From assembly GCA_963855995.1 (NCBI GenBank), contig OY979717.1, positions 11,218,001 to 11,282,000 on the forward strand: a stretch of 64,000 nt of DNA, read 5' to 3'. Made by a program: the position numbers and the translations under genes. This DNA is from Muricea muricata (taxonomy: Eukaryota; Cnidaria; Anthozoa; Malacalcyonacea; Plexauridae). Of this stretch, positions 29,501-32,500 are shown piece by piece. The notes under the pieces were generated by a model, which was not told the origin of the DNA, made no database searches, and saw nothing but the letters and a program-made list of their open reading frames with translations. Numbering within the stretch: position 1 is the stretch's first letter; every line of letters begins with the position of its first letter.

Positions 29501-32500
29501 TAAGAGAAGAGAATAGTCAGGGAGGTACAGGTACAAAAGTGCATGTTTACTGTGCATTGGTACCCTGTCGAGGGACAATTTATTTTGCTCTTAAAGTGAC
29601 TGTCAGATGCCCAGCATAACAATTCTGAATGTTTTATGGCCCATGAATGAGCTTCGGCCAACACAGTTTTCTTCACTTTCTCTATAAAAAATCTACAGTT
29701 GTCAAAAAATGTAATTTTTATATTCCTGTGCAAAAAGTTCATAAAAAACTATATATAAGACATTGCCATGGTTACCTTGATTTTCAAGTTCTTGTTGAGT
29801 TATTTGAGCGTTTGAAAACCTATTTCAGTCTTGTGCTATTTTCCGCCATTTTCGAATTTTAAACCAGCAATAACTGGAAATCCACTTGAAAATGCAAATA
29901 ACCCATAATAATGTCTTATATGTACGGTAGTTGTTTATTAATATTACGATAAGTTATTTTTCCAATAAAGAATTCTGAAATTTCACCTTTTTTGACAATA
30001 ATTGAATTTTATGGGGAAAGTGAAGAAAACCATTTTACTGACAAAGACTCAAAAGAAAATTTGGACCCAACATCCAAAAATTGTTACGTTTCGCATCCAA
30101 CGAAAAATTTGAGAGCAAAATGAAATGGTCTATCGAGAAGGTAAGTAAAATTACCTCAGTCTACCTCCCTAACTAGAAGTACCGCACTAAAACACTGGTG
30201 CAACTAGTGCACAATCCCCACCAGGAATTAAGAAATAGCATTTGTTTCCTAACAATGTTTCCTAGTTTGTCCACCTCGGAAACAAAATTGCCAGGAAGCA
30301 TAAATGCTTCCTAAGAAATTCTGAAACATTAAAATCTTCCATAGCAAAGCTATGTAAGAAAACTAACAGAAAACAATGTTTCACATTTTGCTCAAAGCTC
30401 ACAGTATGTGCTGTATTTATTGGGCTTAAGCTATATATAAATATATATATATATATATATATATATATATATATATATATATATATATATATATATATAT
30501 ATATATATATATATAAATATATATATATATATATAAATATATATATATATATATATATATATATAAATATATAAATATATATATATATATATATATATAT
30601 ATATATATATATATATATATATATATATATATATATATATATATATAACAAAGAAGACAAACTTGAGTCACTTCATTTAAACATTTATTCACTACAAACT
30701 TGTTTCATATGGTAAGCAAAGCTTACCACACTCATCAGGTGAAATCGCATTTGATGTTGTGCTGAGGAAACTTGAGGTGTTATATATACATGATTGGCAT
30801 CATCGAAATAGTGTTATATTACATGGGTTAGCTATTGATTGCAAAGCAGGAAGTCTTTCCTATGTCTACAGGCTGATAACAGTTCGTTTCTAGTTTCAAG
30901 TTTTCAAGTTCGTTTCTAGTTTTCAAGTTTCCTCAACACAACATCAAACGCGATTTCACCTGATGAGTGTGGTAAGCTTTGCTTACCATATGAAACAAGT
31001 TTGTAGTGAATAAATGTTTAAATGAAGTGACTCAAGCTTGTCTTCTTTGTTATATCTGCTCTACTTCTGTATTGAGCACTCTACTCATATGATTCTATAC
31101 TCAATACTAGTCTATATATATATGACATTTCGCTCTGTCCATATGTCATTGAGCACTCTTTTGTATTTCGCTAACCAAAACTAGCACAGTATATATATAT
31201 ATATACATATATATATATATATATATATATATATATATATATATATATATATATATATATATATATATATATATATATATATACATATATATATATACAC
31301 ATATATATATATATACACACACACACACACATATATATATATATATATATATATATATATATATATATATATATATATATATATATATATATATATATAT
31401 TATATATATGTATATAATTATATATAATTATATATGTATAATCATGGCTTGATTTATTCAGAAAAAAGTTACGTTTTTGAAAGGGCTTCTGACAGTAACA
31501 CTGTCATGCAATCAAAATGCAGGCATCAATAGTCACCTGGAAATTTATAGCAATTGGTATTAGCCCCATGCCAACTGATCTACATACCACATGTTTGAAC
31601 CACTTCTTTAAAGTTTTGAGGGATTTATTTCGAAACATAAATTCCAAAGGCAGTTCAAGACCAATATCACATTGCAATGACGGTACAAGACTTGGAAACA
31701 GGTTGGGAGGTGGAAATATCTAAAATTATATTATAAAATTAATTAATATTGATTTATTTCTTATCATCCTTTGGGAAATTTAACCACTGGCACATAACAA
31801 AAACAGGATTTAATATTCTAATGACCAAATTTATCTTAAACAGACTTATCTGGAATTAGTAAATATATAGTTATCTGATTTCATTAACACAAATTATTTT
31901 ATTTTCAAGTGTTTTAGCTATCTTAGGACCATTTAAGTTCAATCATATTTTTTTTCTTCTAAGGAAGAAGCCCACCACTTCTTCAAATGAAACACCAAAT
32001 CCTTTTAACTAATTGAGCTACAATGTTGCCCCAGGACTATCCTGAGAGGCATTTAGGGGGCAAAGGGAAATTTTAACCTTTAAAGCATCATGTTCAGATA
32101 TTTGAATCTACGGTACTGGTATTTACGTTAGTTGGGGATATATAAATTGTACAACTTCATATTGATTAAGTTAAAACCTTATAAACATCTTCAATCTTCA
32201 CACTCCCAATGATCCAATGTGCAAAATATTTAACTGCAAATTTAGTCTTCAAAAAATTTGATAACAACTCTTCATGCTCTGTTGTGGTAGCTTGACAAAA
32301 TATTAAAACACAATGTGATGACCTAGCTGGTTCAAACTAGTTAATTTTTAATTAATTAAAAATTAAATTTAAATTTAGTATACCGGTAATTGAAAATAAA
32401 TGGTATATTATACAATATCCCCATATCGAGTAACTTGTAGAACAACATGTACAACAAGTAACAGTGTAGCAAAACATGGTTTTAAGAGGTTCACTGGTTT

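Follow-up and report, generated by a model that had tools for sequence, protein, structure and literature searches.

Minimal type I hammerhead ribozymes were reportedly described in Penelope-like elements (PLEs) and in Terminons by Cervera and de la Pena in 2014 and by Lunse in 2017. Such minimal motifs are placed in PLE pseudo-LTRs (pLTRs) in the available text of two reports (PMC7229834, PMC7761336). The insertion machinery of a Poseidon-type PLE from the green anole, PAc, has been studied in vitro; its protein cuts and extends both DNA strands, and its reverse transcription starts inside the RNA at two adjacent sites, which accounts for the tail. The accessible part of that 2024 paper gives published PLE tails as 30 to 40 bp and calls the later steps of PLE insertion yet to be validated (PMC11167929). 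Among rotifer PLEs, head-to-head is described as the commonest inverted layout in the accessible part of a second paper, the main text of which has no occurrence of the word hammerhead (PMC3846280). Hammerheads in PLE pLTRs, inverted pLTRs and a tail on one of them are therefore all already published. What we did not find in the literature searched is an excess of inverted pairs in (AT)n tracts whose two arms end at different RNA sites, here called U and D, and the reading of that excess as priming from both DNA strands; neither appears in the available portions of PMC11167929, PMC3846280, PMC7229834, PMC8969392, or PMC7761336. A search for papers proposing two-strand priming by PLEs as the source of inverted copies likewise returned none, an absence that is weak evidence given incomplete coverage of the literature.

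The locus compared here with these systems lies in a 64,000-nt stretch of the genome of the cnidarian Muricea muricata (the window; assembly GCA_963855995.1, contig OY979717.1, positions 11,218,001 to 11,282,000 of the forward strand). It contains two inverted arms, each bearing a hammerhead motif, and these arms are the 3' ends (pLTRs) of two 5'-truncated PLE copies of the same family, joined head to head in (AT)n. On its own, the locus amounts to a short piece of ordinary transposon debris left by one PLE insertion and is not a special ribozyme device, a reading that settles the question of whether an unusual intronic ribozyme pair is present.

Hammerhead motifs in the window

A 58-nt type I hammerhead motif occurs twice in the window, at 30954-31011 on the plus strand and at 30744-30687 on the minus strand, with 58 of 58 nucleotides identical. 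The arms that carry the motifs are inverted and outward-facing, and they match each other at 124 of 127 nt. Each motif has the sequence elements CTGATGA, GAA, and GUA, a stem I of 5 bp, a stem II of 11 bp, and a stem III that could form 4 bp around a 2-nt loop. The conserved core, three stems, NUH site and open stem I identify the motif as a type I hammerhead by sequence and descriptor, with stem III predicted to be weak. Run on both strands, a generic hammerhead descriptor matched exactly these two places in the window, whereas 100 first-order Markov surrogates gave no match. The sequence-only reading of this DNA had reported two well-formed hammerheads, inverted and pointing outward, and this much is borne out by the identical motifs, the descriptor counts and the stem covariation described below. 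Cleavage is predicted 3' of A31005 on the plus strand (31005/31006) and 3' of A30693 on the minus strand (30693/30692), giving 5'-OH ends at 31006 (+) and 30692 (-); the first of these ends had been predicted correctly, but the second had been placed at 30687.

A covariance-model comparison, proposed in the same reading, gave scores below threshold. In a search limited to 81 nt, the Hammerhead_1 model (RF00163) aligned from end to end with a score of 13.7 bits (E value of 0.74), below the cut-off of 34 bits. No Rfam model reached its gathering threshold in the window, and an E-value scan of 501 nt returned no hammerhead. Both arms of the locus have G.U as the first stem II pair, where most genomic copies have G-C, and both carry the same C-to-U change beside GAA.

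The intact cores in both arms would be compatible with a working ribozyme pair that cuts the host pre-mRNA with one member and antisense RNA with the other, as the sequence-only reading suggested. We consider this very unlikely, because on either strand the antisense arm is transcribed first and the resulting duplex is predicted to exclude the ribozyme fold. Equilibrium secondary-structure prediction gave the isolated motif a stem I probability of 0.88 and a stem II probability of 0.99, with just 0.07 for stem III; in a host-sense transcript that includes the antisense arm, the stem I probability fell to approximately 1e-50, and the same loss of the ribozyme fold was predicted for the transcript of the other strand. 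A longer transcript with the sense arm only gave 0.016 for stem I and 0.95 for stem II, so that context is predicted to matter even when the antisense arm is left out. In its inverted form, then, the ribozyme in host RNA is predicted to be trapped in a duplex with the antisense arm and silenced. The G.U pair at the start of stem II and the membership of the locus in a large set of dispersed copies also speak against a working pair.

The host gene had been named in the earlier reading as TXNDC16, with the pair in one of its introns, and this setting was not established. Among 10 ORF pieces of the window, there was one weak thioredoxin match, at 17.1 bits against a cut-off of 23.5, in a minus-strand piece at 17241-17618, 13 kb from the element. 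An open stretch of 132 nt at 31588-31719 (-), judged exon-like by eye and bounded by AG and GT, could be the nearest exon of a host gene. Other features of the window are a Bel/Pao LTR retrotransposon at 20875-25737 (-) with Peptidase_A17, RVT_1, rve, and DUF5641 domains; an uninterrupted 347-aa Tetraspanin ORF at 34909-35949 (+), approximately 4 kb from the element (Pfam E value of 1.9e-39); and a tandemly repeated coding-like stretch at 53054-53960 (+) that reads KLQKLHIKVTKAPHQGYKSS...

Genomic copies and identity of the element

The 406-bp segment that spans the arms has at least 88 matches in the same 453-Mb genome, with 40 scored out of 646 candidates. A 24-base hammerhead pattern allowing up to two mismatches was found at 267 places (126 forward and 141 reverse), and the same pattern read backwards was found at none; a pattern for a second subfamily (B) allowing up to one mismatch was found at 127 places, again with none for its control. 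The other genomic copies that the sequence-only reading proposed to look for are thus present in number, and the loss of the motif in most of them, which would have spoken against that reading, does not occur: all core nucleotides are kept in 73 of 77 distinct copies in a list read by eye, in which only the 3' half is unbiased, the 5' half having been part of the search pattern. Covariation was assessed in 33 distinct 59-nt segments out of 34; one segment (L020:510-568) was left out because its 3' half is a junction rather than a hammerhead. Across the 33 segments, 97.0% of stem pair cells are standard pairs, compared with at most 52% paired in slid controls. Five of the 20 stem pairs changed on both sides, a count as high as which was seen in 0 of 500 shuffles. 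Four of five covariation measures exceeded all 500 shuffles, and the fifth, further pair types, was reached by 182 of them. The hammerhead stems do covary across the genomic copies.

Longer copies contain a single ORF of 701 aa. By eye, this ORF contains FDVVDFYPSI, YRDDG, and VVYQATV...YVGHT...FKTRYNNH, which we take to be reverse transcriptase (RT)-like and GIY-YIG-like motifs. Pfam searches of the ORF gave no RT and no GIY-YIG match, PDB sequence and profile searches gave neither of the two and no convincing relative, and the few weak Pfam and PDB matches (for example, CTD11 at an E value of 0.06 and uS7m at 0.5) look like chance. The PLE name rests on the motifs together with the anatomy: a tandem pLTR-ORF-pLTR arrangement in one copy (L034), 5' truncation, inverted copies with head-to-head pLTRs, an optional short 3' tail delimited by end sites U and D approximately 60 nt apart, and a hammerhead in the pLTR. 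On these grounds, we take the element to be a PLE. The sequence-only reading had related the hammerheads to those of Penelope-type elements and retrozymes and had proposed a search for a Penelope-type RT beside other copies, and both suggestions proved sound in that the arms belong to a PLE whose longer copies have an ORF with the RT-like motifs that we read by eye. The (AT)n on both sides of insertions masks any short target-site duplication.

An (AT)4+ run lies at one of two positions in 78 of 84 distinct 3' ends and is absent from the remaining 6; the other 63 kb of the window contains 11 (AT)4+ runs. Site U of the main family follows TTGTTATAT and is the end of 45 copies by distance; site D, approximately 60 nt beyond U, follows ACTAGTCTATA and is the end of 33 copies. 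In the window, the U end lies on the left and the D end on the right, and both abut (AT)n. The left (AT)n target tract (30427..30647) is followed by the left arm (30643..30900, minus strand), a 5'-truncated PLE copy that retains approximately 256 nt of the 3' end and stops at site U without a tail; blastn aligned it to the genomic PLE unit at 96% over 259 columns, corresponding to RNA positions -256 to 0. Its inner part, at 30835..30900 (-), corresponds to the final 22 codons of the ORF (aa 680 to 701; tblastn, 91% identity, E value of 1.8e-7). A 22-nt filler at the head-to-head junction (30901..30922) is mostly a repeat of adjacent sequence (direct repeat D2). The right arm (30923..31115, plus strand) is likewise a 5'-truncated copy, with 132 nt upstream of site U and a 60-nt tail that ends at site D, and blastn aligned it to the unit at 96.4% over 193 nt, RNA positions -132 to 60. 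The tail between U and D occupies 31056..31115 (+) and includes TTGAGCACTC at 31072. In the same (AT)n tract, and ahead of the right target tract at 31190..31402, a second PLE family (C) is represented at 31125..31189 (+) by a fragment that consists of its tail only and is identical at 62 of 65 positions to the family C tail at 3446-3510 of locus L065. To judge from this fragment in its right flank, the (AT)n tract has been struck by PLEs at least twice.

The short size and terminal inverted arms of the locus could also suggest a DNA transposon whose terminal inverted repeats contain hammerheads, or else a non-autonomous retrozyme. Both candidates were rejected, and we regard them as extremely unlikely: the left arm carries PLE coding sequence, and there is no fixed unit, with arm lengths that differ from locus to locus. 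A metazoan retrozyme would be a small noncoding tandem unit of a few hundred bases, whereas the arm here runs into the PLE ORF and varies in length.

The TTGAGCACTC element occurs at 31072 and 31149 (+) in the window and is found in the tails of both family A and family C, whose proteins are approximately 47% identical. In 295 kb of PLE-picked loci, it was counted 76 times (redundant), against 0.6 expected, and it is possibly an RNA site bound by the RT. Family C has a hammerhead-like motif of its own (CTGAAGA ... GAAACAGACTGTA/GTGG) with quite different stems, located at 3374 in L065 and at 529 (-) and 2266 (+) in L050; the two in L050 also face outward.

Origin of the inverted pairs

Close pairs of the motif are predominantly outward-facing. 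Counted over the complete sets of exact matches, subfamily A (73 matches) has neighbors within 8.2 kb in 21 outward, 0 inward, and 2 same-direction arrangements, and subfamily B (90 matches) has 17 outward and 1 inward, where approximately 0.15 neighbors would be expected by chance. For both subfamilies together, 38 of 41 close neighbors are outward and 1 is inward. An inverted, outward layout, which the sequence-only reading had held to be unusual for such elements, is thus what most close neighbors in this genome show, and it has been published for rotifer PLEs. Mapping on the PLE unit resolved the pairs into 5'-truncated copies joined head to head, with truncation points that are mostly unequal, as in the arms of 2033 and 616 nt at L031 and of 256 and 132 nt in the window.

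The end types were tabulated for 31 head-to-head pairs with a hammerhead in both arms, one per locus (L043 is the same as L002 and L035 the same as L060, each counted once); the genome has more. In 28 of them, a U end faces a D end (P value of 2e-6 against one half), the other three being two U/U pairs and one D/D pair, and 59 of the 62 ends adjoin (AT)n. Fold-back self-priming, in which one cDNA, or an antisense-RNA copy, folds back and copies itself into an inverted repeat, would give the same end type on both arms, contrary to what 28 of the 31 pairs show, and would not suit the many very unequal arms such as those of L031. Published work on a rotifer explains its head-to-head PLEs in this way, as self-priming on an antisense template in the accessible part of the paper (PMC3846280), and fold-back has some support here in the like-ended pairs (L033, L038, and L075), in L041 with arms of 285 and 285 nt and a 15-nt overlap, and in 6 of 19 main-family pairs whose arms differ in length by no more than 15 nt, where re-pairing would give 1.06. 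We judge it unlikely as the origin of the window pair, and the three like-ended pairs and the six near-equal pairs may include cases of it. Arm lengths correlate over the 19 pairs (rho of 0.57, P value of 0.01); the correlation was absent in the 14 pairs with both arms longer than 150 nt (rho of 0.03).

The arms within a locus also usually share source variants. In 20 main-subfamily loci, they differed at 39 positions, compared with a mean of 73 on re-pairing (P value of 5e-5); these are 20 of 26 pairs, with L034, L051, L052, L056, L064, and L068 left out. Among 18 main-family junctions, 11 have an overlap of 1 to 17 nt, 4 have a filler of 1 to 4 nt, and 3 have 15 to 86 nt. Both results bear on the proposal that a pair records two successive, independent insertions in opposite directions into the same (AT)n tract. 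Repeated strikes on (AT)n do happen, as the family C tail beside the window pair suggests, and two loci (L065 and L062) join different families and another (L068) different subfamilies. Yet 15 of the 18 junctions show an overlap or a filler no longer than 4 nt, with no target tract between the arms, the arms share source variants in the loci tested, and inward pairs are nearly absent (1 of 41). Two separate insertions seem to us quite improbable.

The best explanation of the window pair, which we hold to be probable, is a single PLE insertion event in which both strands of the (AT)n tract primed reverse transcription at two start sites. We infer the strand events from the anatomy and the statistics, as follows. 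The PLE protein would open an (AT)n tract, whose self-complementarity would let both 3' ends pair with UAUA stretches of the element RNA, at U and at D. Priming would take place at U on one strand and at D on the other, usually with RNA from a single source as the template. The two cDNAs would end early and would then be joined head to head, often through an overlap of 1 to 17 nt or a short filler. The hammerhead would be carried along, its cut site lying upstream of both start sites, and the copied RNA would be uncut or re-joined, since U and D lie downstream of the hammerhead cut and L034 has an uninterrupted internal hammerhead. In the intact element, the hammerhead presumably processes tandem transcripts. 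In favor of this two-strand explanation are the PLE anatomy, the outward orientation, the ends at (AT)n, the opposite ends of 28 of 31 pairs, the shared source, the junction overlaps and the covariation of the hammerhead. As a wider and more tentative proposal, somewhat short of an even call, PLE insertion into (AT)n may typically be two-stranded, with the ends priming at U and D on same-source RNA and the tail marking one strand.

Several observations run against two-strand priming. Three of the 31 pairs are like-ended, the end called U in L064 does not abut (AT)n, L068, L062, and L065 have mixed arms, and the 6 of 19 near-equal pairs could also come from fold-back. The lack of a Pfam or PDB relative for the ORF counts against the reading as well, as do the PAc start sites, which were not homologous to the cut DNA and did not differ between strands. 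Two RTs following each other strictly along one RNA would not explain loci with a much longer tail arm, such as L039 and L074. Among 16 opposite-ended main-family pairs, the U arm is longer in 10, the D arm in 5, and the two are equal in 1 (Wilcoxon P value of 0.03); the idea that the tail arm is always shorter, as with two RTs queueing on one RNA, was dropped, L039 and L074 being strongly contrary. Two-strand priming is not obligatory, because among 15 single-hammerhead loci, 8 have no partner, L048, L049, and L055 among them being flanked on either side by (AT)n, and in 3 (L046, L050, and L067) the partner is missing its 3' end. Another two (L063 and L069) have a partner arm that lacks the hammerhead and has the opposite end, and two (L062 and L065) face a copy of another family.

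The head-to-head partners of different families are found in L065 (1405/1411), with a copy of 47% protein identity to A, and in L062 (1460/1532), with 35 to 48% protein identity to A; the arms of L068 come from different subfamilies. These mixed pairs may reflect mixed templates or coincidence.

If PLE insertion into (AT)n is typically two-stranded, symmetric target-primed reverse transcription is recorded in the genome, and it would explain the inverted pLTRs and the optional tail together. Many copies in a self-complementary microsatellite make a natural record of PLE insertion, and the excess of U/D pairs with usually shared variants turns the origin of inverted pLTRs into a testable prediction. 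The family also shows the hammerhead copied as part of the template.

Comparison with known elements

The statements on published systems in this section refer to the accessible parts of the papers cited. The metazoan non-LTR retrozymes resemble the Muricea arms in their type I hammerhead and low GC content, but they are small tandem units with RNAs of approximately 170 to 400 nt, whereas the arm here is continuous with a PLE ORF (PMC7229834). The minimal hammerheads of PLEs and Terminons are closer, being type I with a small stem III and a pLTR location (PMC7229834, PMC7761336); they differ in that stem III here may reach 4 bp around a 2-nt loop and that close pairs here are mainly inverted. 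The Penelope elements of Adineta vaga share inverted pLTRs, a tail on one of them, 5' truncation and partial tandems with the Muricea family. In that rotifer, however, target duplications of 8 to 10 bp are visible, and palindromic junctions are read as self-priming on antisense RNA (PMC3846280).

The likeness to PAc extends to the mechanism. Both elements have a tandem pLTR-ORF-pLTR arrangement with a hammerhead near the pLTR/ORF junction, in both, two internal RT start sites lie downstream of the hammerhead cut and delimit an optional tail, and both prefer AT-rich DNA; cutting and extension of two strands were seen in vitro for PAc and are what we infer here (PMC11167929). The two differ in the position of the hammerhead cut, which lies inside the ORF in PAc and approximately 145 nt upstream of the ATG in the Muricea element, and the account of PAc does not discuss head-to-head pairs. 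They also differ in their targets, in that the PAc start sites are not homologous to the cut DNA and are the same on both strands, whereas the Muricea element targets long (AT)n tracts that its RNA end sites match (UAUA) (PMC11167929).
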